Positions 10,222 to 47,591 of a stretch of DNA of 49,797 nt are shown here, in pieces; the stretch's first letter is position 1; the number at the start of each line of letters is the position of its first letter. The DNA lies in the IMG/VR virus record IMGVR_UViG_3300037587_000281, positions 1-49,797 of that record; one strand, given 5' to 3'. The notes under the pieces were generated by a model that was given only the letters and a program-made list of their open reading frames with translations, was not told the DNA's origin and ran no database searches. The DNA is from a virus. A program made the position numbers and the translations under genes.

Positions 10222-10950
10222 ATGAGACTTAAAGATATTGGAGCAACCGGAGCGAAAAGAAAGGGGTTATCTAAAAGCCCTCTATACGGGATTTGGTCAC
10301 TTATGCTTTATAGGTGTTATGACAAAAATTCAAAATCATATATTAATTATGGAAAGAGGGGGATAACCGTTTGCAATAGATGGTTTTGTTTTGATAATTT
10401 TCATGATGATAATATAAAGCTTTATAATTACGGCTTAGAAATAGATCGAACCGATAATAATGGTGATTACTCACCGGGCAACACAAGATGGGTCACGCAT
10501 TCTCAGAATTGCAGGAATAGAAGAACATCAGTTTTAGCAACAATTAATGGGGTGGAAAAATCAGTTTATGACTGGGCTGATGAGGCGGGAATTAACCCCA
10601 AAATGGTATTAGAAAGAGTTCAGCAGCAAGGATGGAGCATTGAGAGGGCGTTATCAGAACCTACAGCAAATAGGCACGAAAACATGTTAATAGCGCAAGG
10701 TAAGCGATGGGAAGGTCACGTCAAAGTTCCAAAAAGAAAACCAAAGACAGCTAGAAAGATAAGAACCATCGAGTACAAAGGCGAAACAATGACCATTAAG
10801 CAGCTTTCTGATATAGTAGGCGTAAGCGCTAAGCTTTTGAGTAAACGTTTATTTGAAAGAGGCTGGCCTCTTGATAGGGCGGTCACGAATGAAAATTTCA
10901 AAGGCACAAATCAATTTACTAAGGAACAATCATGCAAATCCCAACAGTAA
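10222..10950 (+). CDS. HNH homing endonuclease with DNA-binding repeats
   Basis: The 242-residue protein begins with a phage HNH domain: SPLYGIWSLMLYRCYD, YGKRGITVCNRW, then LEIDRTDNNGDYSPGNTRWV, whose last segment is the HNH core. The C-terminal half has two similar helix-turn-helix units, YDWADEAGINPKMVLERVQQ and IKQLSDIVGVSAKLLSKRLF, each followed by a W-(S/P)-(I/L)-(E/D)-RA motif. These resemble NUMOD-type modules. It lies between coat and connector genes and its 3' end overlaps the next small gene by 19 bases. Confidence 0.8.
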   Translation: MRLKDIGATGAKRKGLSKSPLYGIWSLMLYRCYDKNSKSYINYGKRGITVCNRWFCFDNFHDDNIKLYNYGLEIDRTDNNGDYSPGNTRWVTHSQNCRNRRTSVLATINGVEKSVYDWADEAGINPKMVLERVQQQGWSIERALSEPTANRHENMLIAQGKRWEGHVKVPKRKPKTARKIRTIEYKGETMTIKQLSDIVGVSAKLLSKRLFERGWPLDRAVTNENFKGTNQFTKEQSCKSQQ

Positions 10951-11990: not shown

Positions 11991-12013
11991 AAGCCGCTTA
12001 ATTGCGGTTTTTT
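11991..12013 (+). terminator. Intrinsic terminator after the 11072 gene
   Basis: CCGC (11994-11997) pairs with GCGG (12004-12007), flanked by A-rich and T-rich arms and followed by six T (12008-12013). It separates the head genes from the accessory island. Confidence 0.75.
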
Positions 12014-12050
12014 ATTGCGTGAATTTAATAAATCTTTTTACAAAATAGAC

Positions 12051-12096
12051 TTGAAACCGTGACAATGATGACATATAGTTAATGCCAATGATGACA
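12051..12096 (+). promoter_or_regulatory. Promoter with two 11-bp direct repeats
   Basis: TTGAAA (12051-12056), a 17-bp spacer and TATAGT (12074-12079) form a sigma70-type promoter. The 11-bp sequence CAATGATGACA occurs at 12063-12073, within the spacer, and again at 12086-12096. The copies are 23 bp apart, about two helical turns, as expected for a repressor bound on one DNA face. Confidence 0.6.
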
Positions 12097-13050: not shown

Positions 13051-13590
13051 ATGAGCGAAGTTAAAAGCACGATAGCGAATAAGCCAAGTAAAGAGCTTAT
13101 TGATATGGGTTACAGCAACTCAAGATCTGGACATTATGAAGGCGCTGATGAAAAGAAGTTATTTTCAATGAGAAGGGATTACTTTTTAGATAACCTTTTT
13201 ATCTCGAATTATTGTCGAGAGGTATTTGACGCAGACGAAGATTATACTATTTATGTAATCTCTGCATTTGGTGGCGCTTTCATCTCTCTTGAGTTTTCGC
13301 ATTGGAATTGCCCTGATCGCATTGCTGCCGATGCTGATGGTGAAGTAAATGTTTCATCGGGCAATGACGGAGACTTCTTTACTCCATGCGTAGACATCAA
13401 GGATGGCGCGTGGGAGCATCACGACGATGAGTTATGGTGCGCTGGCTTCATTGATATTGATAAGGATGGTTATTACGTGGTAGGTGGTAGCCATCATCAC
13501 TGGACAACATGTATGTGCATTCCTTCCGTTGTTAAATATAATGTGGGCAAAGCAACGCTCGATATGATAGTTAAGAAGTTTAAGCTTTAA
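13051..13590 (+). CDS. Hypothetical protein, 179 aa
   Basis: The ATG at 13051 fits the GGAG site better than the upstream in-frame ATGs. The protein is rich in Asp, aromatic and His residues, with an HHDDELW segment and a GGSHHHW segment late on, which might bind metal. It is the last gene before the first noncoding RNA locus. Family unknown. Confidence 0.55.
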   Translation: MSEVKSTIANKPSKELIDMGYSNSRSGHYEGADEKKLFSMRRDYFLDNLFISNYCREVFDADEDYTIYVISAFGGAFISLEFSHWNCPDRIAADADGEVNVSSGNDGDFFTPCVDIKDGAWEHHDDELWCAGFIDIDKDGYYVVGGSHHHWTTCMCIPSVVKYNVGKATLDMIVKKFKL

Positions 13591-13596
13591 ATAAAC

Positions 13597-13633
13597 CCAC
13601 CGCTTTGATTAATAATCTTGGCGGTGGTACAAT
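13597..13633 (+). promoter_or_regulatory. Inverted-repeat promoter of structured RNA A
   Basis: CCACCGC (13597-13603) and GCGGTGG (13621-13627) form a 7-bp inverted repeat. The loop holds a -35 box TTGATT (13605-13610), spaced 17 bp from TACAAT (13628-13633), and the right arm supplies the extended -10 TGG. The paralogue at 46184-46219 has a different arm sequence that still pairs (CACGGAC/GTCCGTG), so pairing is conserved rather than bases. Confidence 0.7.
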
Positions 13634-13639
13634 TGGTTT

Positions 13640-13742
13640 GTTGATTGGAGTGAAGCCCATAGACAGAAGATAGGATTTAGTAAGTGACTGGTGTTAATTT
13701 TTCATTAACCCGCTTCAACAGTCACCTACTAAGTCCTTTTTT
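13640..13742 (+). ncRNA. Structured small RNA A with pseudoknot and terminator
   Basis: The transcript predicted from the promoter is about 103 nt. A 19-position helix pairs 13672-13690 with 13719-13737 (one A/C mismatch, one G-U) and ends in six T, forming the terminator. Inside it, GTTAAT (13693-13698) pairs with ATTAAC (13704-13709). The upstream TGAAGC (13651-13656) can pair with GCTTCA (13712-13717) inside the big loop, making a pseudoknot. The copy at 46226-46327 has the same four-part plan with different paired bases. No ORF of useful size lies in it. Confidence 0.75.
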
Positions 13743-14063
13743 ATTGCCTCAAGTTCCCCCCTCCAAACATCTAGGCGCTTTACAAAGTTTCCCCTAGGCA
13801 CGAGCCACCAAAAGCAGAAACGTTTACCAAAATAGCTTATATGTACAAATCAATATTAGATCGTCTTTGATAGCGGACGCACTTACACAGCAAATGTAGA
13901 GTGATAAACATCGTTAGTGGGCACTTTAGGTTTGTGACGGCATTATATGGATGTTGACCGTTTCTGATAAAGTTTAATATTGATACATGCTTATATAATT
14001 ATATTAATTAGCTCAGTGGGTAAGTGTCCCTAAGCTATCTAATGACAACTGTGGAGAAATAAA
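13743..14063 (+). other. Noncoding stretch downstream of RNA A
   Basis: About 320 bases with no convincing ORF. Blocks resemble the stretch after RNA B: TTGCCTCA just after the terminator, TATGGAT, TTTAATATTGATACATGCTT, and TTAATTAGCT..GTGGGTA near 14010. GCTTA and TAAGC near 13990 and 14032 could pair around the last block. It leads into the ribosome site of the 14064 gene, so at least the 3' part may be a structured leader. Confidence 0.5.
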
Positions 14064-14423
14064 ATGAGAGAGTTAACGCAAAAAGAAACTGATAACGCGC
14101 CTAGTTGGGCCACGCATTACGATGCAGTTGGTGATAGCGTCATGTTTGAGTCAAAAGATAATACACAAATGATGATAAAGGGTCAGCTTGGTAATTTGAT
14201 TCCTTTTGGGCCCGTATCGGAAGATTCACAACCAATCCCGAGCAAGGGGTTTGACATTAGTGAGTATCATCGAAACGAAAGTAATGAGAGTTTTTTTGTT
14301 GATGGTGATTTAATTACTCTGGTTAGGCGTGACAATTACACAAACCCATACTTTGAGTTAACAATGAAAGACGCAATAGCCCTAGCCAAGCACTTTAAGC
14401 TAACAGCGGAGGATTTGAAATAA
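14064..14423 (+). CDS. Hypothetical protein, 119 aa
   Basis: It begins MRELTQKETDNAPSWATHYD; the tryptophan and the short GDSVMFES strand suggest a small folded domain. The last 25 residues form a helix (TMKDAIALAKHFKLT). GGAG precedes the ATG. It shares the TAATG junction with the next gene. Family not recognised. Confidence 0.6.
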   Translation: MRELTQKETDNAPSWATHYDAVGDSVMFESKDNTQMMIKGQLGNLIPFGPVSEDSQPIPSKGFDISEYHRNESNESFFVDGDLITLVRRDNYTNPYFELTMKDAIALAKHFKLTAEDLK

Positions 14424-14710
14424 TGGAAGATATAAAGCCGTGTCCGTTTTGCGGCGGAGTGGATATTTCAACAAACAAATATTGCGTAACTCAACTTTGG
14501 TACATTCACTGTACTGATTGCCCAGCATTACTGGAAGAAAGCGGCGGTGGTTATTTTACTGAAAAAGAAGCGATTAAAGCATGGGATAAACGGGCTGATT
14601 TTTCAATGGTAGATGGCAAGCAGCTAGTCAGCGACAAGGCTATAGCTTATTTATTTAAACAGTGGCCGTCTGCATACGAGGAGTTTTATAAGCTACTAGA
14701 TGAGGATTAA
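14423..14710 (+). CDS. Lar-like zinc-ribbon protein, 95 aa
   Basis: The start MEDIKPCPFCGGVDIS, the second pair IHCTDC and the ending KEAIKAWDKR match the Lar restriction-alleviation family closely. A 30-residue extension follows. It is a second Lar-like gene in this phage, the other being at 4449. Antirestriction is the family association, not shown here. Confidence 0.75.
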   Translation: MEDIKPCPFCGGVDISTNKYCVTQLWYIHCTDCPALLEESGGGYFTEKEAIKAWDKRADFSMVDGKQLVSDKAIAYLFKQWPSAYEEFYKLLDED

Positions 14711-14712
14711 TA

Positions 14713-14910
14713 ATGCCATGCGGAAAAGCCTATCTTCACTCAAAGAAACACGCAAAGAAAATACTTAAGAAAAGGAAAAGCGGAGGATTAAAAATTAAGC
14801 TAAGAATATACAAATGCGATTTATGTACAGGCTGGCACTTTACCAGCTGCCCCGTTTGGGTAGTTAAGATAATTAAGGATAGGAAGTTAAATAATGAGCA
14901 ATGTAATTGA
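14713..14910 (+). CDS. Basic zinc-finger-like protein, 65 aa
   Basis: The protein begins MPCGKAYLHSKKHAKK and has YKCDLCTGWHFTS, a CxxC followed by a WHxTS motif. The gene at 48776 has the same plan (MTCGKMAF at the start, CPKCGLFHLTS later), so the two are paralogues. High Lys/Arg content suggests nucleic-acid binding. Its function is unknown to me. Confidence 0.65.
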   Translation: MPCGKAYLHSKKHAKKILKKRKSGGLKIKLRIYKCDLCTGWHFTSCPVWVVKIIKDRKLNNEQCN

Positions 14911-15076
14911 CCTAGGTAAAGAAAAGAAATTCCCAGTTAGCGGCGAGTTAGTTGGTGAGCTTAATAAAGTTATTGATAGTTTCGCTGGCAGAATATCACT
15001 AGTTGAAGCTGTCGGAGCGTTAGAGTTGGTTAAGATTGGCGCAATCGATAAAGCTAAAGAGAACATATCTCCATAA
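14894..15076 (+). CDS. Small hypothetical protein, 60 aa
   Basis: It overlaps the 3' end of the 14713 gene by 17 bases. The sequence MSNVIDLGKEKKFPV, followed by a predicted helix pair, resembles small phage proteins of unknown role. It closes the accessory island. Confidence 0.5.
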   Translation: MSNVIDLGKEKKFPVSGELVGELNKVIDSFAGRISLVEAVGALELVKIGAIDKAKENISP

Positions 15077-15134: not shown

Positions 15135-15175
15135 AATGGCCTAGGTAGAAGATGGCAGGGTGGTTGCTTTTACTG

Positions 15176-15202
15176 TATAATCTCCAATTAACAGGAGATA
15201 TA
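15176..15202 (+). promoter_or_regulatory. Hairpin hiding the ribosome site of homing gene 3, with embedded -10 box
   Basis: TATA-A-TCTCC (15176-15185) pairs with GGAGATATA (15194-15202), nine pairs with one bulged A, and encloses the only ribosome site of the 15203 gene. The 5' arm itself contains TATAAT (15176-15181). RNA starting from it would begin in the loop and leave the site open. This matches the logic known for T4 homing genes, where early read-through RNA is silent and late RNA is translated. Confidence 0.65.
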
Positions 15203-15949
15203 ATGAATTATATTAAAATATACGAAAGAATCATCGAATCATCTAAAAATAGAATCGCTGATGGCTACACAGAAAAGCATCACATCTTACCTAGATGCAT
15301 GGGTGGTGGAGATGAAAAAGAAAATATAGCGGTCTTAACTGCGAGAGAGCATTTTATTTGCCACTGGCTTTTATACAAGCACTACAGAATTAAGAGTTTA
15401 GCGTTTGCATGGCATATGATGAAAATGAATCTTCGCGGCGCAAGATATACGTCAAGATCATTTAAATATGCAAAAGAAGCATTTTCTAAGGCGATGACTG
15501 AGTTTAACACTGGTAGAGTTGCCAGCGATGAAACAAGAAGAAAGCAATCTATAGCGAAAAAAGGCTGCATCCCTTGGAATAAAGGCATAAGGGTTAAGCA
15601 CAAAAAGTCACAGCTTAGAATTGATTATGATAACAACCCTATATTATGCAAAGAATGCAGAGAGCCTTTAGATTTTAGGTATAGACTTAAAAGAACATAT
15701 TGCTCTAACAAGTGTGCAAATAAGGATATATCAAGTTGGTTTGTTCCGCATGAGGCAATCGTTAATTCTGGAAGCTTTAAAAAAGGCCATGAGATGGAAT
15801 GTTCAACAAGAGGTAAGATATCAAAAAAAATGACAGGAATGAAAAGGCCAAGGGGTGCATGCCCTAATTGCGGCAAAGAAGGGGCTTTAAGCCTTTTGAA
15901 AAGATGGCATTTTGATAATTGTAAGGAGATAGGTAGTGTTAATAGTTGA
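15203..15949 (+). CDS. HNH homing endonuclease with NUMOD-like region
   Basis: The ATG at 15203 is chosen because AGGAGA precedes it. The protein of 248 residues starts with MNYIKIYERIIESSK and an HNH core (EKHHILPRCMGGG, then ENIAVLTAREHFICHWLL). The middle has a NUMOD3-like segment (RRKQSIAKKGCIPWNKG). Two CxxC pairs (CKECRE..., YCSNKC) and a late CPNCGKEG suggest bound zinc. It is inserted before the connector genes, and its 3' end overlaps the next gene by 14 bases. Confidence 0.85.
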   Translation: MNYIKIYERIIESSKNRIADGYTEKHHILPRCMGGGDEKENIAVLTAREHFICHWLLYKHYRIKSLAFAWHMMKMNLRGARYTSRSFKYAKEAFSKAMTEFNTGRVASDETRRKQSIAKKGCIPWNKGIRVKHKKSQLRIDYDNNPILCKECREPLDFRYRLKRTYCSNKCANKDISSWFVPHEAIVNSGSFKKGHEMECSTRGKISKKMTGMKRPRGACPNCGKEGALSLLKRWHFDNCKEIGSVNS

Positions 15950-16427
15950 AACGGGTGCAGGAATTATTGGGTCAAATACTTTTATAACTGATGCTGAGTA
16001 CGTGGCCTATGCTGCGGCGCGCAACCTAACAATAGGCGCAGATGCACCAGCGAGAGAAATTGAGCTTATATTAGCTGTCGACTACCTTACGTCAATCGAA
16101 CAGCGATTCAAAGGCACTAGAGTTGAGTCTGACCAATCATTACTCTACCCGCGTCGAAACGTAATTATATTTAGTGATTTATTCGATCAAGATTCTATCC
16201 CGATTCAATTGAAAAATTCCCAAGCAGAAGCGGCCGCAGCCTCTAACGGGCAATCACTGCTAACCAACGAAACCAATCAAAACGTCAAACGAAATAGACT
16301 TGACACTCTTGAGCAAGAATTCTTTGAGGGTGGCTCATGGTCAGTGGCTAGACTTGATAGGGTTAACGCGGCGCTTAAAGAACTGGTGATTGCTGGTGGA
16401 TTTGGCCGTACCGTAAGGATTTTATAA
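15936..16427 (+). CDS. Head-tail adaptor, DnaT-like connector family
   Basis: The GTG start follows an AAGGAGAT site. The 163-residue protein (GSNTFITDAEYVAYAAARNL, then a helical middle and ALKELVIAGG) matches the small phage family annotated as DnaT-like, which sits at the adaptor position after coat genes. It would join portal to neck. It has 1-base start/stop overlaps with the next genes, forming a tight neck operon. Confidence 0.65.
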   Translation: MLIVETGAGIIGSNTFITDAEYVAYAAARNLTIGADAPAREIELILAVDYLTSIEQRFKGTRVESDQSLLYPRRNVIIFSDLFDQDSIPIQLKNSQAEAAAASNGQSLLTNETNQNVKRNRLDTLEQEFFEGGSWSVARLDRVNAALKELVIAGGFGRTVRIL

Positions 16428-18917: not shown

Positions 18918-19556
18918 ATGTTTAATTTCCCACTTAAAAAAGCAAGCGCAAGATCGATCTCAAGAAGAAAGCCGGTTTATGGAGTTGGAATTAACGATTC
19001 TGATTACGTCGTGACCATAAAAATAAACAACAAGAGAAAGATCTGCCCGATATATAAAATATGGGCAAACATGCTTAAGCGATGCTACTGTAATGAGTTT
19101 CAAATAAAGAATCCTGCATATAATGGCTGTAAAGTTGTTTCATGGTGGAGAACGTTTAGTCATTTTAGGATCTGGGTAATAACCCAAGACTGGCAAGGGA
19201 AGGATTTAGATAAGGATTTTATTTTTAGCAACAATAAGATTTACTCGCCAAGCTCATGCTTGTTTGTTAATAGCGACATAAACAGACTTGTAGAAAAAAG
19301 AACAATATCAACTGGGCCTACTGCTTACGGAACTTATCTGGACAAAAGAAGAAGCTTATTTGTAGCAAGGTGTAGCGTAAGATCAAAAGATGTATGGATA
19401 GGCTCATATAAAAAAGAGAAAGAAGCAGGCGAGGCGTTTTTAAAATTCAAGTCTAATCACGTTCACGAAATAGCATTGCAGCAAACGGACGAGCGATTAA
19501 AACAGGCGCTAATCAGGATATCAGGCGAGATTAGCCGAGGCGAATACTACCAATAA
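18918..19556 (+). CDS. HNH/AP2-type homing endonuclease-like protein 4
   Basis: The 212-residue protein is a relative of the one at 6001: GVGINDSDYVV, MLKRCYC, NPAYNGC, QDWQGKDLDKDF and NNKIYSPSSCLFV. Some family positions have changed, for example the usual C.EW is VSWW. The C-terminal AP2-like part (GTYLDKRRSLFVARC, IGSYKKEKEAGEAF) is kept. It separates the tail tube gene from the tail chaperone gene. GAGGA precedes the ATG. Confidence 0.75.
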   Translation: MFNFPLKKASARSISRRKPVYGVGINDSDYVVTIKINNKRKICPIYKIWANMLKRCYCNEFQIKNPAYNGCKVVSWWRTFSHFRIWVITQDWQGKDLDKDFIFSNNKIYSPSSCLFVNSDINRLVEKRTISTGPTAYGTYLDKRRSLFVARCSVRSKDVWIGSYKKEKEAGEAFLKFKSNHVHEIALQQTDERLKQALIRISGEISRGEYYQ

Positions 19557-26423: not shown

Positions 26424-26463
26424 TCACCACAAGGGCTAGGCTTTCGTCCAATTCTTGTGGTGA
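26424..26463. terminator. Bidirectional terminator between tail tip gene and homing gene 5
   Basis: TCACCACAAG (26424-26433) pairs perfectly with CTTGTGGTGA (26454-26463) across 20 bases. T-rich tails follow on both strands. The hairpin includes the last codons of the minus-strand homing gene, so it serves both converging genes. Confidence 0.75.
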
Positions 26464-26972
26464 TTTCTTTTACCTCGACTAACGGCGCTCATATGCGACT
26501 GATTTAACCCATTATCACGGCAGAATTCAGACAGATTATACACATCAACATTCTCACCGCTTGGGCTTGTAAACTTATAGTGCTTAGCGCTTGACTCGAT
26601 AAGATTGTCCGCTTGTATCACAAAGCAACACGTCTCGGCAGAATAAGTTTTGTTACCCTTAACAAGAATATCTTTATCTAATTGCTTACCCTGCCAGTCT
26701 TGAGTTAGCATCCATAGACGGAACGCGCTAAATAAACACCACTCTTTACAGGTGGTGCACCCTTTATACGTTGGGTGTTTTTCCTGACATTTGGGCGAAT
26801 AGCAGCGGTGAATCATGTTTACCCACGTACGGTATATTGGGCACATAATCCGCTCGCCGTCAATTACCGGATAGGTCAAATAATCAGCGTCATTTATGCC
26901 AACGCCACAAACCAGTTTTCTAAAAGCTAGCGACTTATTACTTGCTGGAATTTCTTTAAATGAGTTTTTCAT
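26436..26972 (-). CDS. Homing endonuclease-like protein 5 with exchanged C-terminus
   Basis: The first 130 residues (FKEIPASN, GVGINDADY, RCYSPKCQEKHPTYKGC, QDWQGKQLDKDILVKGNK) are close to the proteins at 6001 and 37712. After FVIQADNL the AP2-like part is missing. Instead there is a helix-turn-helix module (VDVYNLSEFCRDNGLNQSHM, SAVSRGKRNHHKNW) like NUMOD1-type repeats. At 178 residues it is shorter than its relatives. It runs against the late operon and has its own promoter on the minus strand. Confidence 0.75.
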   Translation of the reverse strand: MKNSFKEIPASNKSLAFRKLVCGVGINDADYLTYPVIDGERIMCPIYRTWVNMIHRCYSPKCQEKHPTYKGCTTCKEWCLFSAFRLWMLTQDWQGKQLDKDILVKGNKTYSAETCCFVIQADNLIESSAKHYKFTSPSGENVDVYNLSEFCRDNGLNQSHMSAVSRGKRNHHKNWTKA

Positions 26973-29657: not shown

Positions 29658-29857
29658 TTTGTTTGATCCTTTACAAAGTGAGTCAAATGCTCGATTAGAA
29701 CCAGCGCCTCAGACACATTAAGCATTGGTCGCCCCGGGGCTTCCTTTGAAAACATAGCCTGCATTACATTGCCTTTCACGTAATGTGTCGAGTTAATTGT
29801 TATCCTAGCCTCTTGGAAAGGTATTTTTTCTATTGACGTTTCAAATTTTATACTCAT
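29654..29857 (-). CDS. Hypothetical protein, 67 aa
   Basis: It lies between ninG and the mini membrane gene, sharing stop/start overlaps with both. The sequence is mixed with a C-terminal helix (SEALVLIEHLTHFVKD). No family recognised. Confidence 0.5.
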   Translation of the reverse strand: MSIKFETSIEKIPFQEARITINSTHYVKGNVMQAMFSKEAPGRPMLNVSEALVLIEHLTHFVKDQTK

Positions 29858-30519
29858 TATAACCCCCGTAGTTTTGCGTAAAATCTAGCGCGCTTGTTAA
29901 ATATTTTCTTGATGCGCTTTAGTCGATCGATATTGAATTTATTTGATTCCGGTTCGTTATTATTTTCAAGGAAATTAACTTTATCAATGCCAATCTTTTT
30001 AATTAAATTAATTCTGTAATTAGCGTCAACCGTTGCGGCTTTGGCTGAAAACTTACCGCCGCCAGCATTACATGATTTGCACTGCTTATGGACGTTAAAA
30101 AGGACAAACCTTAATTGGCCTTTTGCACCTCTTGTCATAAAATGCCCGGCATCCCAACAGCCGCCAACCTTCCAGTCTTGTTCGTGCTCAATGACTTCTC
30201 TTGGCTTTAGGCATGAAATGCAAGGTTCAGCGTAATCACGAACGCGAATATACTTATTGAATGCCGCTTGAGCTTCGGCTAACCATTTTGACTTAGGTTT
30301 AATTTGCTCCTTCGCTTCTCTATGGGCCTTTTTAGCCACCTTGTCAGCTTTAACTTGTGATTGCTTGGCTTTGGCTTGTTGTCGCTCTCGCTGCTTAGCT
30401 TGCGCAGCCCTGGCAAACTTTATCGCACTATCGGAATCACAAAACACGCCAGCCGGAGTTTTAATAAAAGTTTCGGTATATGTACCATGATATTTACACT
30501 TTCGTTTAGCTACTGGCAT
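29857..30519 (-). CDS. ninG: NinG/Rap-type recombination protein
   Basis: The 220-residue protein matches NinG of lambda in layout. A Lys/Ala/Gln-rich helix (40-75) is followed by CISCLKP, then AGHFMTRGAKGQLRFVLFNV and HKQCKSCNAGG. The cysteine and histidine residues form the zinc-containing HNH-like core of Rap, which cuts recombination intermediates. It lies in a nin-like cluster with ninB at 30778. Confidence 0.85.
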   Translation of the reverse strand: MPVAKRKCKYHGTYTETFIKTPAGVFCDSDSAIKFARAAQAKQRERQQAKAKQSQVKADKVAKKAHREAKEQIKPKSKWLAEAQAAFNKYIRVRDYAEPCISCLKPREVIEHEQDWKVGGCWDAGHFMTRGAKGQLRFVLFNVHKQCKSCNAGGGKFSAKAATVDANYRINLIKKIGIDKVNFLENNNEPESNKFNIDRLKRIKKIFNKRARFYAKLRGL

Positions 30520-30788
30520 TGCGTCAAATCCTTAATTGTTATACTTCGGTTGCCCTTTTTGTAATGATTGATATCTCGCAACCTATCAGTTAAATCCCAT
30601 TGATTACGCTTTAAAAACTTAAATCCCTCAATGCAAGACTCGACGCTATCAAAGCTGCCAGGTAGCCAGCCGCCAGAATCAGAAATGCAATGAGATAAAG
30701 ATCCGTCATCATTAACAACTCGATGGACTGTTAATTTATTATTGCCAGCCTTAACTTGAGTTGTATTGTTAGTCCATTTATTGGCCAT
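30510..30788 (-). CDS. Hypothetical nin-region protein, 92 aa
   Basis: It lies between ninB and ninG with short overlaps on both sides. The sequence is basic at the N-terminus (MANKWTNNTTQVKAGNNK) and has a GGWLPGSFDSVESCIEGF block. No family recognised. Confidence 0.5.
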   Translation of the reverse strand: MANKWTNNTTQVKAGNNKLTVHRVVNDDGSLSHCISDSGGWLPGSFDSVESCIEGFKFLKRNQWDLTDRLRDINHYKKGNRSITIKDLTQCQ

Positions 30789-31203
30789 TTGATTTGTCCT
30801 TTAATTTTTGATATTCGTTATCGTCGGGCATTGGCAACACAATCATTTTGTCGATCGCCCATTGTTCAATTTTATTTAAATAAAAATGCATCTCGCCAAC
30901 GTCTAACCGCTTAGTTGATCTCTCCGATGTTTGGCCAACTGGAAGCGGTACCACCTTGACCGGGCAGAAATAACGCTTAAAATAACAATGCCAGGTTTCA
31001 GGGTCATAGTAAGAACTGCCAACTTCGACAGTGTTCGCTATTTCAGTAAGCCATTTCCAATATAAGCTATTTTGGTCAACGCTTCGCTTTTCTCGCCACT
31101 TAACAATTTTTACCCGAAATCTGCCGCCCTTTAGCACAAGCTCAGTGCACAACTTAAAGAACGCTGACAATGTGTCGATACTTAGGCAAAAATCTTCTTT
31201 CAT
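30778..31203 (-). CDS. ninB: NinB-like recombination protein
   Basis: The 141-residue protein has the RVKIVKWREKRSVDQNSLYW block, which corresponds to the RxxDQNxxxW/H motif of NinB, and a C-terminal block with STKRLDVGEMHFYLNKIEQW. In lambda, NinB (Orf) binds single strands and SSB and helps recombination. Pairing with ninG and ERF supports the call. Confidence 0.75.
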   Translation of the reverse strand: MKEDFCLSIDTLSAFFKLCTELVLKGGRFRVKIVKWREKRSVDQNSLYWKWLTEIANTVEVGSSYYDPETWHCYFKRYFCPVKVVPLPVGQTSERSTKRLDVGEMHFYLNKIEQWAIDKMIVLPMPDDNEYQKLKDKSNGQ

Positions 31204-34054: not shown

Positions 34055-34756
34055 TTATTTACCCTTATTTTCGTTAAAACGTTTCTTATACGGCCCGATC
34101 AATCTGGTTCCGCTTGCTTGCATAGTCGCAATTTCAGCATCTAACCTGATATTTCGAGCTTCTTCCGTTTCGGTTTCGCGGAAAACTTCAGGGCTAGCAA
34201 CCTGAACAGGGTTAATATCATGCTCGAGCAATTCCCCATTTTTAACTAGCTGAATGTTTCTAGTGAGCACCTTTTTAAATAACGCTCGGGCCTTTTCTTC
34301 TGATAGCTGTTGCTTGCATCTAAAACCGACTTCTTGACGCGTTTCGTATTCAGCAACGCCATTGCATGGCTTTTTGTCGATCATGCGGTTAAATGCTTCG
34401 TCAGTGTCTATTTCAGGCCCATCACACCAGTTAATAAACTGACCAACACTTGGCCAAAACGGATTAACGCCTTTTCTAGCTGCCTCAAGTCCGGCTTTTA
34501 TCTGCCATTCGTTAGAGATATTGTTTTCGATAAACGCCTTGGTCCATGTCTTTTTTGCAGCGTTCCATGTCTCGCGAGTTTCAAATGCTTGCTTCCAAGC
34601 TGGGTAACATGACTTGAGTTCGTTAAACAGATCGTCGATAACCGACTTCGCATTTTCGGAAACTTGTTTTTTAAGTAACTCGTTTTGCTGATTAGTGAGA
34701 TGAGTTTGCTGCATGTTGGATTGCATATTTTGCATTACTGCTTTTAAATCTTTCAT
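34055..34756 (-). CDS. Replication protein P-like helicase loader
   Basis: The ATG at 34756 follows a GGGGA site better than the GTG at 34762. The 233-residue protein has NEWQIKAGLEAARK, then PFWPSVGQFINWC, the conserved block of lambda P-type proteins. P brings the host helicase DnaB to the origin bound by O. The N-terminal 35 residues are Gln/Asn-rich. It overlaps the O-like gene by stop/start contact. Confidence 0.8.
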   Translation of the reverse strand: MKDLKAVMQNMQSNMQQTHLTNQQNELLKKQVSENAKSVIDDLFNELKSCYPAWKQAFETRETWNAAKKTWTKAFIENNISNEWQIKAGLEAARKGVNPFWPSVGQFINWCDGPEIDTDEAFNRMIDKKPCNGVAEYETRQEVGFRCKQQLSEEKARALFKKVLTRNIQLVKNGELLEHDINPVQVASPEVFRETETEEARNIRLDAEIATMQASGTRLIGPYKKRFNENKGK

Positions 34757-34758
34757 GA

Positions 34759-35400
34759 TCACATCCCCAAGTCTTTATGCCAATTATCATCATCCCAGTT
34801 TTCGGGTTGTTGATTTTGACTAGATTGTTTAATAGGGAAAAGGCCTTGATATTCGTTGTCAATTGACTGCTGAATAATTAACGCTTGAGTTTGTTCGTTC
34901 CCCATGGTGATTATTTTTTTCATAGCGGAATCGGTTTTATACTTCTTGAATTTGCACTTGACTCTAAATGCAATCCATAAATCCCACGCTTCACAATTCA
35001 GCCCGATAGGGCGCGGATCTTCTTTGCTCTGTCTCTCCTCTGTCTCTTCTCTACTCTTCTCTACTGAGGGAACACTTGATGGAGCGGGTTGCTCACTACC
35101 TTGTAGCGGAGCGCTAGCATCATGCTCCATAACTAGAAAGCCTGATTCTATTAGGGATTCCAGATTAACTTTTGAATGGCTACCTATCTTTTTAGAAATC
35201 CAGCTAGCATCGAATGGCATTAGGTTTTTGGTTCGACTAGCTAACATCCAAATACACAGCAAGTGACCTTTGGCTGCGTCACTCAGGCATTCAAAATCGT
35301 AATCATCAAGTAAGTGATTATGCAGCTTAATCCACGGCGGGTTTCTATCTTTGTAATGCTGGAAGTCATCCCAGTTTTTGACCTTGAAGTAACTTTTCAT
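34759..35400 (-). CDS. Replication initiator O-like protein
   Basis: The N-terminus (FKVKNWDDFQHYKDRNPPWI, KLHNHLLDDYDFECL, HLLCIWMLAS) is a winged-helix block common to phage replication initiators. Residues about 95-130 are a linker rich in Ser, Glu and Arg. The C-terminal part (WDLWIAFRVKCKFKKYKTDS) probably meets the P-like protein. In lambda the origin lies inside the linker part of O. Here that DNA (about 35005-35075) is almost pure pyrimidine on the plus strand. Confidence 0.8.
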   Translation of the reverse strand: MKSYFKVKNWDDFQHYKDRNPPWIKLHNHLLDDYDFECLSDAAKGHLLCIWMLASRTKNLMPFDASWISKKIGSHSKVNLESLIESGFLVMEHDASAPLQGSEQPAPSSVPSVEKSREETEERQSKEDPRPIGLNCEAWDLWIAFRVKCKFKKYKTDSAMKKIITMGNEQTQALIIQQSIDNEYQGLFPIKQSSQNQQPENWDDDNWHKDLGM

Positions 35401-37621: not shown

Positions 37622-37722
37622 TGTGTCACCTCGATTATATTAACGAATGAATAAGCTTCGATAATTGCGAATACCGCAAACAAGAACCAAAACCAGCGCT
37701 TTGCGTGCTTTTTATATGGCAT
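37618..37722 (-). CDS. Mini membrane protein, 34 aa
   Basis: MPYKKHAKRW followed by the hydrophobic segment FWFLFAVFAIIEAYSFV suggests a single membrane helix with a basic inner end. It overlaps the end of the homing gene by 11 bases. Confidence 0.4.
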   Translation of the reverse strand: MPYKKHAKRWFWFLFAVFAIIEAYSFVNIIEVTQ

Positions 37723-38356
37723 TGACAAGTCCTTTTGTTAGCTTTGCGGCGTGAAGCTTTAGTCCATTAGAGATTAGCGGGTCGCTTTGTTCGGATGCCG
37801 CTTGTAGTATTGTCTTTGACTTAGCATCGATGTATGCGGCGCTTGCCAATTCTGGAGTGGTATAACGACCTAAGTTTTTTGATGTTCCCTTTATATTAAC
37901 TCCAGCTTTATACTTTTTTGACTCCCTGTCATAGCTAACCCCCTGAGGGTATTCTCCTCTTTTTGCTGCGTGATCATTTAGTAGATGATTCAATTCTTTT
38001 GTTATGAATCGACAATTTTCAGGATCGTAAATCTTATTTCCAGGATTGATAATGTCTTTATCTAGATCCTTTCCTTCCCAGTCTTGCTGCTCCATCCAGT
38101 GCTTAAAAGACGTAAAACTAAGCCATTCCTCGCAAACTGCGCAATCAATATATGTTGGGTATTTTTCGTGATATTTTTTTGAATAGCACCTATTAAACAT
38201 ATTTTTCCATCTTGCGTAAAAAGGGCACGTGACTTGTTTACCTCTAATTAAAGGCATAACTATATAATCTGCGTCATTAGTTCCCATGGAAAATATCAAT
38301 TTACGTTTTGCTATTGATATTTTGCTTGCTTTGATTTGTATAAATTTATTTTTCAT
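37712..38356 (-). CDS. HNH/AP2-type homing endonuclease-like protein 6
   Basis: The 214-residue protein is closest to the 6001 one: FIQIKASKISIAKRKLIF at the start, GTNDADYIV, RCYSKKYHEKYPTYIDCAVC, QDWEGKDLDKDIINPGNK and YDPENCRFI. The AP2-like C-terminus (YPQGVSYDRESKKYKAGV, LGRYTTPELASAAY) is present. It lies in the early operon, unlike its three structural-block relatives, which shows spread to both arms. AAAGAGAT precedes the ATG. Confidence 0.75.
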   Translation of the reverse strand: MKNKFIQIKASKISIAKRKLIFSMGTNDADYIVMPLIRGKQVTCPFYARWKNMFNRCYSKKYHEKYPTYIDCAVCEEWLSFTSFKHWMEQQDWEGKDLDKDIINPGNKIYDPENCRFITKELNHLLNDHAAKRGEYPQGVSYDRESKKYKAGVNIKGTSKNLGRYTTPELASAAYIDAKSKTILQAASEQSDPLISNGLKLHAAKLTKGLVNAI

Positions 38357-39347: not shown

Positions 39348-39450
39348 TTCAGCAATGGAATTTTTTACCGAATGTGCCGAAAGGGTCGGTGTGACTTTGG
39401 AAGAATTAACCGCGGCAGATGCAAAATTTTGGAGCTTTGAAGATGAGTGA
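39340..39450 (+). CDS. Small acidic protein, 36 aa
   Basis: The ORF MNDSAMEFFTECAERVGVTL onward follows an AAAGGAG site and overlaps both neighbours by 8 bases. It is acidic and helical. The coupling makes it a probable gene just before the recombinase. Confidence 0.5.
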   Translation: MNDSAMEFFTECAERVGVTLEELTAADAKFWSFEDE

Positions 39451-39964
39451 TTTAAAATTAGCTTTATCAAAAATACAGCAGACGTTAAACGCCCCTAAAG
39501 GTCAGTGGAATGATTACAGCAAATATCATTACCGAAGCTGTGAGGATATCCTCGAAGGGCTTAAAAAGGTTCTTGGTGAATGCGTGGTAACTATTAGTGA
39601 CGATATGGTAGCAGTTGGTAATAACATTTACGTTAAATCCACGGCAACAATATCACTAGGCACTGAAAGCGAAAGTGTAACGGCATTTGCCAGGGAGCAG
39701 GAAAGCAAAAAGGGCATGGTAGGAGCGCAATTAACCGGATCAACTAGCTCTTACGCTCGCAAATATGCATTGAATGGCCTGTTCCTTATCGATGACAATA
39801 AGGATTCGGACAATAGCGGAATAAGCATCGCAGAGGTAGCCAAGGAATGCGGCTGGACGATTGAAAGTGTTTTAAACTCTTTCAATCCACCGCTTAAAAA
39901 TATATCAGAAATATCAGACGTCAAAGCATGCGCGGAACACTTACGCGCCAACAAAGTAAATTAA
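39443..39964 (+). CDS. erf: ERF-family single-strand annealing recombinase
   Basis: The ATG at 39443 gives MSDLKLALSKIQQTLNAPK. The ERF motifs are clear: YSKYHYRSCEDILEGLKK near residue 25 and GSTSSYARKYALNGLFLID near 100. These proteins anneal complementary single strands and help circularise or recombine phage DNA. The C-terminal 55 residues form a separate helical domain. An SSB-like protein and a coiled-coil protein follow, the usual ERF neighbourhood. Confidence 0.9.
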   Translation: MSDLKLALSKIQQTLNAPKGQWNDYSKYHYRSCEDILEGLKKVLGECVVTISDDMVAVGNNIYVKSTATISLGTESESVTAFAREQESKKGMVGAQLTGSTSSYARKYALNGLFLIDDNKDSDNSGISIAEVAKECGWTIESVLNSFNPPLKNISEISDVKACAEHLRANKVN

Positions 39965-46183: not shown

Positions 46184-46219
46184 CACGGACTTTTGATTAT
46201 TCATGGTCCGTGGTACAAT
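46184..46219 (+). promoter_or_regulatory. Inverted-repeat promoter of structured RNA B
   Basis: CACGGAC (46184-46190) pairs with GTCCGTG (46206-46212). The arm runs into TGG-TACAAT (46211-46219), an extended -10 box. The loop holds TTGATT, here only 15 bp from the -10. The pairing is kept although four arm bases differ from copy A. Confidence 0.65.
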
Positions 46220-46225
46220 GGTTTT

Positions 46226-46327
46226 GTTGATTGGCGTCGGAACCAAAAGACACTAGATAGGGTTTAGTTAGTAACTGTGATGATTCAACATCATCATTCC
46301 GACCAGTTACTAGACTAAGCCTTTTTT
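46226..46327 (+). ncRNA. Structured small RNA B with pseudoknot and terminator
   Basis: Main helix: 46261-46277 with 46304-46321, 17 pairs and one bulged G, followed by six T. Inner hairpin: TGATGA (46278-46283) with TCATCA (46291-46296). Pseudoknot: GTCGGAA (46236-46242) with TTCCGAC (46297-46303), seven pairs lying directly between the inner hairpin and the main helix. Every helix differs in sequence from copy A but pairs in the same place. The leader TTGTTGATTGG and the end CCTTTTTTA(A/T)TGCCTC are nearly identical in both. Confidence 0.75.
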
Positions 46328-46671
46328 AATGCCTCAGTTTTACGTCAAGATTTATCCTAGAGCACATTCTTTATCAACAAAACATGATATTCAAAGCTAC
46401 GAATCAAAATAGCAATTAACACAAAGTCCAAGCACTGTCCCGCCATGACAACTTGGCCCCATCATGAAACTCTATGAGTGTCAGCGTTATTTATAACGAC
46501 CGAGTAATCGGGTTAGGGGATCAATTAGTACCTATGGATTGTTATTTGGTCCATATTTAACTAGATACACGCTTTGCCATCTTGGATAAGCCCTTTAGTT
46601 AACTAGCTGTGTAGGTATCAGTTAGGGGAAAATGGCTTAACTATGTCTTAAATTAATAATTGGAGAATAAA
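46328..46671 (+). other. Noncoding stretch downstream of RNA B
   Basis: About 340 bases without a convincing ORF. It shares spaced blocks with 13743-14063: ATGCCTCA, TATGGAT, TTTAACTAGATACACGCTT and TTAACTAGCT..GTAGGTA. Near the end AAGCC and GGCTT, and AGTTA and TAACT, can pair just before the GGAG site of the next gene. It may be a structured leader or a second RNA. Confidence 0.5.
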
Positions 46672-47171: not shown

Positions 47172-47591
47172 ATGACGACCATAACTTATCACCACAAAGA
47201 CAAGCAAGTAGCGTATGACGGGCGATGCACTGGCGGTGATGTAATAAAGTGTGACGATGATGATAAGTTAGATACTAAAGGGGATTTGACTTTTATTTTA
47301 GCAGGCGCTTTGGACGAGAAAGAGCACCTAATAAGTCAGTACCCAAATAAACTAGAAAAGACAGTAAGCGTTTCAGGCTTTCTAATAAAAGACAATATTG
47401 TATATGGTATTTGCGGGGACGATCTTAATATAGCTGAGTGGAAAATGAATTACTCTGACGCTCATGGTAGCGGCGCTAAATTCGCTATCGCTGCAATGGA
47501 CCACGGCAAGACCGCTAAAGAGTCCGTTAAGTACGCAATGACTCGTGATATCCATACTGGCGGCAAGGTTAGAGTATTCGACGTTAAATAA
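47172..47591 (+). CDS. HslV/proteasome-like Ntn hydrolase
   Basis: The 139-residue protein starts MTTITYHHKDKQVAYDGRCT. After Met removal this gives the N-terminal Thr-Thr of HslV-type peptidases, with Asp and Lys (AYDGR, DDDDKL) near the positions of catalytic Asp17 and Lys33. The end, GSGAKFAIAAMDHGKTAKES followed by YAMTRDIHTGGKVRVFDV, is the C-terminal proteasome-like signature. It is shorter than HslV (about 175) and no HslU partner is encoded. A role in protein trimming or defence is possible but unproven. Confidence 0.75.
   Translation: MTTITYHHKDKQVAYDGRCTGGDVIKCDDDDKLDTKGDLTFILAGALDEKEHLISQYPNKLEKTVSVSGFLIKDNIVYGICGDDLNIAEWKMNYSDAHGSGAKFAIAAMDHGKTAKESVKYAMTRDIHTGGKVRVFDVK

Follow-up and report, generated by a model that had tools for sequence, protein, structure and literature searches.

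The element at positions 13640 to 13742 of the window, the term used here for the whole 49,797-nucleotide stretch of viral DNA that was analysed, belongs to a widespread family of structured RNAs, RNA1, in which the fold is kept by compensatory base changes across at least 43 distinct relatives recovered by a covariance model built without the pseudoknot. Judged by its anatomy, it is a well-supported case of a phage leader or small RNA with a new fold that is uncatalogued in Rfam. Its surroundings across relatives further suggest that RNA1 could be the first, terminating domain of a non-coding operon leader and act as a conditional terminator, a reading to which we assign a probability of roughly 0.5. 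The window holds two copies, and the first, copy A, has the following parts.

13597-13603 and 13621-13627, + strand: inverted repeat, CCACCGC and GCGGTGG, enclosing the -35 box (other arms in a minority of relatives)
13605-13633, + strand: sigma70-type promoter, with -35 TTGATT (13605-13610), a 17-nt spacer and -10 TACAAT (13628-13633)
13640-13742, + strand: RNA1 copy A, about 103 nt, with P1, pseudoknot, P3, long terminator helix P2 and U6
From 13640, + strand: hairpin P1
13651-13656, + strand: 5' strand of the pseudoknot, TGAAGC, in the P1 loop; covaries in alignment A6
13712-13717, + strand: 3' strand of the pseudoknot, GCTTCA, in the terminator loop; covaries in A6
13673-13742, + strand: terminator, made of the P2 helix, the inner hairpin P3 and T6

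Promoter, P1, pseudoknot and terminator had all been described in the initial annotation and are present at these coordinates, and its statement that the RNA carries no reading frame agrees with the absence of any ORF of at least 60 aa overlapping copy A. The promoter is of the extended -10 type, with TG one base 5' of TACAAT. The arms of P2 lie at about 13673-13690 and 13719-13736, directly followed by T6 at 13737-13742. Folded without its pseudoknot, copy A reaches -31.1 kcal/mol (z -4.3; 0 of 200 shuffles as low), and the covariance model R1 scores it at 86.6 bits. The second copy, copy B, lies 32.6 kb away.

46184-46219, + strand: copy B promoter, containing the inverted repeat CACGGAC (46184-46190) and GTCCGTG (46206-46212) and -10 TACAAT (46214-46219)
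46226-46326, + strand: RNA1 copy B, with pseudoknot GTCGGAA (46236-46242) pairing with TTCCGAC (46297-46303)

Its plan is identical to that of copy A and its pseudoknot sequence is different, which fits the earlier description of a second locus about 32 kb off where the helices are kept by other bases. Copy B scores 98.8 bits with R1 and, minus the pseudoknot, folds at -33.2 kcal/mol (z -5.4; 0 of 200 shuffles as low). Two copies are likewise found in each of the records G001 and G007, which like the window are 48.6-49.8 kb long, and one in the other matching records. Reverse-strand matches of R1 fall in the same places, are caused by the palindromic P2 and were left uncounted.

Relatives were collected by pattern scans of viral contigs in which the pseudoknot and the terminator interior were open, and true members were recognised by their full anatomy. 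Every search pattern had N at the pseudoknot positions. Upper P2 and P3 were likewise free, save in one scan that fixed parts of upper P2 and returned known members only. Parts of P1, the P2 base or the T-run were fixed in the patterns, and one required TGCCTC after the T-run, so that conservation in P1, the P2 base and the T-run is partly by construction. For one of the scans, relatives were drawn from among the matches listed, and in several of them the hits beyond the named relatives were chance matches. Model R1 was built from 16 relatives with the pseudoknot left out and was then run on the collected loci; this covariance search of phage sequences, which the initial annotation had proposed, recovered a family of related loci. 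Alignment A6 comprises 43 distinct rows (E <= 6e-7) from 43 sources, omitting L026 at the threshold and duplicates such as L286, L300 and L347; rows in general are not all independent, as near-identical loci occur (L278/L286/L300, L323/L347, L223/L230 and L162/L201/L227/L324). A topology-descriptor scan recovered copy B and not copy A, and a stricter version recovered neither. An exact-pattern scan of bacterial genomes gave two chance matches and no RNA1, and none was found in one Chitinophagaceae genome. Shewanella phage 1/40, with a 19-nt match, was rejected as a relative because a gene starts about 30 nt past the match.

The covariation claimed from the two copies is confirmed on an alignment of 43 rows. 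Across 33 pairs, 95.3% of cells are paired and 27 pairs have changed on both sides. The double-change cells number 250, a count reached by none of 500 shuffles (60.8 ± 7.1), and when the partners are slid by 1-3 columns pairing falls to 31-55%. The alignment was fitted to the nested helices and not to the pseudoknot, and the TGAAGC/GCTTCA pairing proposed for copy A covaries across the same 43 rows. Taken alone, the seven pseudoknot pairs of the alignment have 93.0% paired cells (25-46% when slid) and 100 double changes against 28.7 ± 5.7 in shuffles, and are no better than shuffles on two of five measures, namely pairs with a double change and further pair types. Conserved bases are present in A6 at the top of P2 (CUG/CAG) and at its base, and sequence identity is low in much of the fold.

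A complementary, covarying hairpin loop and internal loop would suit pairing between molecules as well, and RNA1, with or without RNA2 (the second RNA described below), would then be a multimer or packaging RNA in which each P1 loop pairs with an adjacent molecule's internal strand. Intermolecular loop pairing is known from the phi29 pRNA. The phage RNAs GOLLD and ROOL form homo-oligomers (PMC12286853). We consider such a role for RNA1 highly improbable, since the loops of copies A and B, which occur in one phage, do not match and the cis pseudoknot geometry looks feasible by estimate.

Copies A and B share the anatomy by which the family is defined: the -10 box lies 6-7 nt ahead of P1, the P1 loop forms a pseudoknot with the interior of the terminator, and P2 is followed by a T-run. 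The fold with its T-run is also present in the 41 further rows of A6, giving a T-run after P2 in 43 of 43. By script, a -10 box was located 6-7 nt before the first P1 base in 33 of 44 upstream regions; in most of the remaining 11, a TAATAT- or TATAAT-like box is there by eye. TG before the -10 box and TTG near -35 are common among the relatives.

The inverted-repeat promoter, which the initial annotation had taken as part of the design, is real at copy A and lies outside the conserved core. G+C-rich arms straddling the -35 box occur in about 9 of about 60 relatives, some identified by eye (copies A and B, L002, L250 and Vibrio phages K30, F89, 199E37-1, 1.016.O and 1.177.O). Three arm pairs are seen: CCACCGC/GCGGTGG in copy A and its close relatives, CACGGAC/GTCCGTG in copy B, and CCCCACT/AGTGGGG or shorter in K30, F89, 1.016.O and 1.177.O. 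Most relatives have none, and single cases arise in about 2-15% of shuffles, so the repeat is best regarded as accessory and not core. The hairpin CCCCACT..GTGTGGAGTGGG is recurrent (L382, L383, L388, L389 and many of the 316 matching Vibrio phage records described below), sometimes with no RNA1 behind it, as in Vibrio phage 98E28.6a.

The recurrence of this repeat over the -35 box with different arms could indicate that the conserved element acts as DNA, for instance as a hairpin promoter on single-stranded DNA, a recombination site or an origin, with the RNA secondary. The pseudoknot strands, almost all Watson-Crick in A6 (7 G-U cells), and the mosaic distribution of leader segments between phages would be compatible with this. 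Such a role is nevertheless very unlikely, given the G-U pairs on the + strand in P1, P2, P3 and RNA2, the fixed positions of the T-run and -10 box relative to the fold, and the lack of the repeat in most relatives.

RNA1 also occurs in cultured phages. A DNA query spanning RNA1 and RNA2 of locus L288 matched 74 of 50,697 named phage records (71 Vibrio and 3 Pseudoalteromonas), and a query of class Y (L227) matched none of the named records. Two queries containing the inverted-repeat promoter matched 316 and 315 Vibrio records, many over the promoter part only, and most of the leader of Vibrio phage K30 is present in 66 records. An RNA1-like element was present in 11 of 12 cultured-phage regions inspected. 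Phage 98E28.6a was rejected as a carrier, as it shares the inverted repeat only. Model R1 matches F89, 199E37-1, vB_VnaS-L3 and 1.016.O at E <= 1e-5 and 1.177.O at 1.8e-4. In BS5, HS2, 1.085.O, NF and H105/1 the sequence is unrelated or barely matching and the plan is kept, with a -10 box, a first-hairpin loop paired inside the terminator and a T-run. The longest stretch of complementarity joining the 5' segment to the terminator interior measures 7 nt in seven of the 11 loci, 8 nt in two, and 6 nt and 11 nt in one locus each; a complement of 7 or more is found in 3-10% of dinucleotide shuffles per locus, and the loci, reached by similarity to the leader region, do not amount to eleven independent tests because several are close kin. 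The 11-bp knot belongs to K30, a single lineage of near-identical records, in which there is no T-run and the fold runs on into RNA2. Further RNA1 variants occur in L377 and L263/L294, and in L377, BS5 and HS2 an RNA1 of unrelated sequence and the same plan is found at loci that bear RNA2.

What follows RNA1 is about 230-490 nt of non-coding DNA and then a same-strand gene. A same-strand ORF of at least 50 aa starts within 600 nt at 40 of 42 loci (49 rows minus 7 whose contigs end too soon), the exceptions being L250 (825 nt) and L309 (755 nt). This co-direction is weak evidence where upstream genes run the same way, since phage genes are mostly one-directional; of the 13 rows in which every nearby upstream ORF lies on the opposite strand, 12 have a same-strand ORF behind RNA1.

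In eight aligned relatives the spacer contains a second covarying, pseudoknotted RNA, RNA2, with a core of about 170 nt (L288:1319-1490 and seven aligned relatives; alignment A7). Its 28 pairs have 95.5% of cells paired, with 27 double-change cells compared to 8.3 in shuffles, and its pseudoknot, formed by a hairpin loop with the strand that precedes TAATGA, is 100% paired; a further long-range helix is visible by eye, outside the counted pairs. Model R2 (E <= 1e-6) finds RNA2 in 11 of 48 RNA1-bearing sources, 8 of them its own training rows, and in 0 of 73 loci without RNA1 (74 sources were searched, one of which, L343, carries RNA1). The spacers of classes Y and Z look structured too. In L380 (G005) 1195-1255 and L378 (G027) at about 2380-2450, RNA2 3' halves lie apart from their 5' halves, after inserted genes (HNH-type in G005), an arrangement suggestive of mobile genes having inserted into the leader. 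Transfer RNA genes are also seen near RNA1: in V. breoganii phage 1.085.O, annotated tRNA-Trp and tRNA-Arg begin right after the RNA1 terminator (L387 1304-1451), in L130, at the site 12008-12084, a tRNA-Pro directly precedes RNA1, and L289:4320-4540, between RNA1 and RNA2, holds a tRNA-like 3' half (GGTTCGAATCC...ACCA) uncalled by ARAGORN. The corresponding spacers of the window are as follows.

13743-14063, + strand: non-coding stretch from terminator to next gene, at the position of RNA2 in relatives
46330-46659, + strand: non-coding stretch following copy B; much of it is near-identical in L007

Model R2 gives no match in either, so a structured RNA2 in the window is suggested by its relatives. 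Scoring for sigma70 sites left most spacers without a site above shuffles, and the best scores mostly lay around the shuffled mean or under it. Some class X loci, with sites close to the start of the gene, are exceptions, as are six class Y loci, several of them nearly identical, where a possible promoter lies 22-23 nt past the T-run. The conserved TTGCC after the T-run was rejected as the -35 of a second promoter, as it fits part of class Y only.

The initial annotation had considered a stand-alone small RNA, as an anti-host regulator, a decoy or a packaging RNA. The same-strand genes at 40 of 42 loci, the second covarying RNA in the spacer and the K30 fold without a T-run point instead to a leader element acting in cis. 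That RNA1 is a trans-acting regulator or decoy of a host or phage factor, with its place before operons incidental, is doubtful but has evidence behind it: a strong promoter at a fixed distance, an efficient-looking terminator, a self-contained fold, the conserved bases of P2, and the presence of two copies in each of the three records of about 49 kb. In addition to the cis evidence, this explanation has to accommodate the unrelated RNA1 sequences that hold the same place ahead of RNA2, and a pseudoknot whose sequence varies freely and would as such be no fixed target seed.

The genes behind RNA1 are diverse. A head-tail adaptor type (L283, L306 and L344) clusters with the window protein at 15936-16427; by labels read from sequence, others are portal-like (L220, L289), helicase- or primase-like (L227, L223), or small HNH or GIY-YIG genes (L221, L222, L300, L307). 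In the window, copy A sits in the interval from the capsid to the head-tail genes and is followed by small accessory genes.

14064-15076, + strand: small co-directional genes downstream of copy A
14423-14710, + strand: Lar-like restriction alleviation protein, behind copy A
15152-15949: homing endonuclease, after the small genes behind copy A
15936-16427: head-tail adaptor, matching phrog_477
47172-47591: HslV-family peptidase-like protein, behind copy B

This arrangement, together with the low sequence identity in much of the fold, would suit a start and insulation cassette in which promoter and strong terminator shield inserted genes from late transcription and the knot merely aids the terminator. 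We find this quite unlikely: a terminator between promoter and gene gives no help to the expression of that gene, a plain terminator needs no 5' hairpin, pseudoknot or conserved junction, and in L283, L306 and L344 a head-tail type gene stands directly behind RNA1 with no inserted accessory genes.

The window phage is lambdoid-like, as judged by the following predicted genes.

34759-35400, - strand: O-like
34055-34762, - strand: P-like
30778-31203, - strand: NinB
29857-30519, - strand: NinG
39419-39964, + strand: Erf-like

The closest matches to its capsid protein are in Rhizobium and Acinetobacter phages, those to its terminase in Vibrio breoganii phages, and five HNH or homing-type endonuclease genes are present (10222-10950, 15152-15949, 18918-19556, and, on the - strand, 26436-26972 and 37712-38356). 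Of the Q antiterminator types, the two Pfam families searched for, PF03589 and PF06530, were each found in 0 of 15 RNA1-bearing records. A PapB-like regulator was rejected as a common partner, occurring in only 4 of the 15.

Reading RNA1 as a terminating leader domain rests on the same-strand spacer or RNA2, and then the gene, that follow it. Three features suggest a conditional terminator: a conserved RNA lies past the terminator in the same orientation, mostly with no promoter in evidence to start it separately; RNA1 versions of unrelated sequence hold to one place and topology; and one lineage, K30, has the fold without the T-run. Further support comes from the constant position of the promoter relative to P1 and from the two tRNA genes directly behind the terminator in 1.085.O. 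Transcription would start at or next to the first P1 base from the sigma70-type promoter, and the predicted fold, backed by covariation, consists of P1, the P2 terminator helix enclosing P3, and a pseudoknot in which the P1 loop pairs with bases immediately 5' of the descending arm of the terminator. By default, RNA polymerase would stop at the U-run, releasing a stable RNA about 103 nt long. Termination may be suppressed at some point during infection, either by a phage or host factor recognising the knotted fold or by the fold itself acting on the polymerase, and read-through could then continue into the downstream RNA and the operon. Several points count against the leader reading: base pairing is possible between the U-run and the A-rich linker that precedes P2, which would be expected under selection for efficient termination; R2 matches some loci only; class Y has its possible promoter past the T-run; and the two Q families searched for are absent from the 15 records. 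No competing antiterminator pairing is visible, and the fold looks like one stable state.

Rfam 15 at gathering thresholds gave no match in the window, and a tRNA only in 20 loci; an e-value search with 13560-13780 and eight loci returned the same tRNA and chance hits to miRNA, snoRNA and other families far below threshold. C4-type antisense RNA, 6S RNA, phi29 pRNA, HEARO, GOLLD and ROOL, which we take to be families in Rfam, were rejected as identities because none matched. A full-text literature search, within the portions of text it covered, produced no description of RNA1, which agrees with the earlier view that no phage RNA of this plan had been described; a computational survey of candidate phage structured RNAs has reportedly been published, and its lists lay outside the comparison. 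RNA1 is as such an unlisted phage RNA family with unusually clean covariation, in phages culturable on laboratory hosts (e.g. V. natriegens phage vB_VnaS-L3), and RNA2 is a further uncatalogued structured RNA.

The plan of RNA1 can be likened to the lambda late leader or to a phage attenuator. In lambda, the pR' promoter, the 6S RNA and the terminator tR' form a leader that is opened by Q antitermination, and the Q site is DNA. RNA1 resembles it in sequence anatomy, with a constitutive-type promoter, a short terminated RNA and a long downstream operon. In contrast to the lambda leader, RNA1 is about half as long, knotted and covarying, its leaders also precede replication-type genes, the 15 RNA1-bearing records contain neither of the two Q families searched for, and the recognised element is probably in the RNA fold. 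If RNA1 is a conditional terminator, it would illustrate a way for lambdoid phages lacking a recognised Q to set the timing of operon expression. Transcription attenuators and riboswitch expression platforms similarly interlock an aptamer-like fold with an intrinsic terminator in a 5' leader, but no alternative antiterminator helix is seen in RNA1 and its downstream genes share no pathway. GOLLD and ROOL are, like RNA1, structured non-coding phage RNAs with pseudoknots, sometimes beside tRNA genes (as in 1.085.O and L130), but they are far larger (PMC12286853), and their Rfam models match neither RNA1 nor RNA2.

The closest precedent for an RNA-driven version is probably put of phage HK022, with a different fold. 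According to PMC9378689, which also treats sigma-dependent pausing and lambda Q, put RNA alone acts on the host polymerase, and putL and putR are, like RNA1, phage RNAs of about 70-100 nt at operon starts, two copies per genome, behind a sigma70 promoter. As described there, put consists of two stem-loops, without a terminator pseudoknot or a built-in U-run, whereas RNA1 combines P1, P2 with P3, a crossing pseudoknot and a U-run. It is conceivable, although rather unlikely, that the knotted fold of RNA1 decides alone, in the manner of put, or with a host signal, between stopping and passage into RNA2, which would have its own function during infection. In that case RNA1 and RNA2 would together form a novel, modular expression device in marine lambdoid phages, with sequence-unrelated versions keeping the topology only. 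More generally, a conditional terminator of this kind would be a compact natural pseudoknot-gated terminator, testable in vitro with host polymerase.
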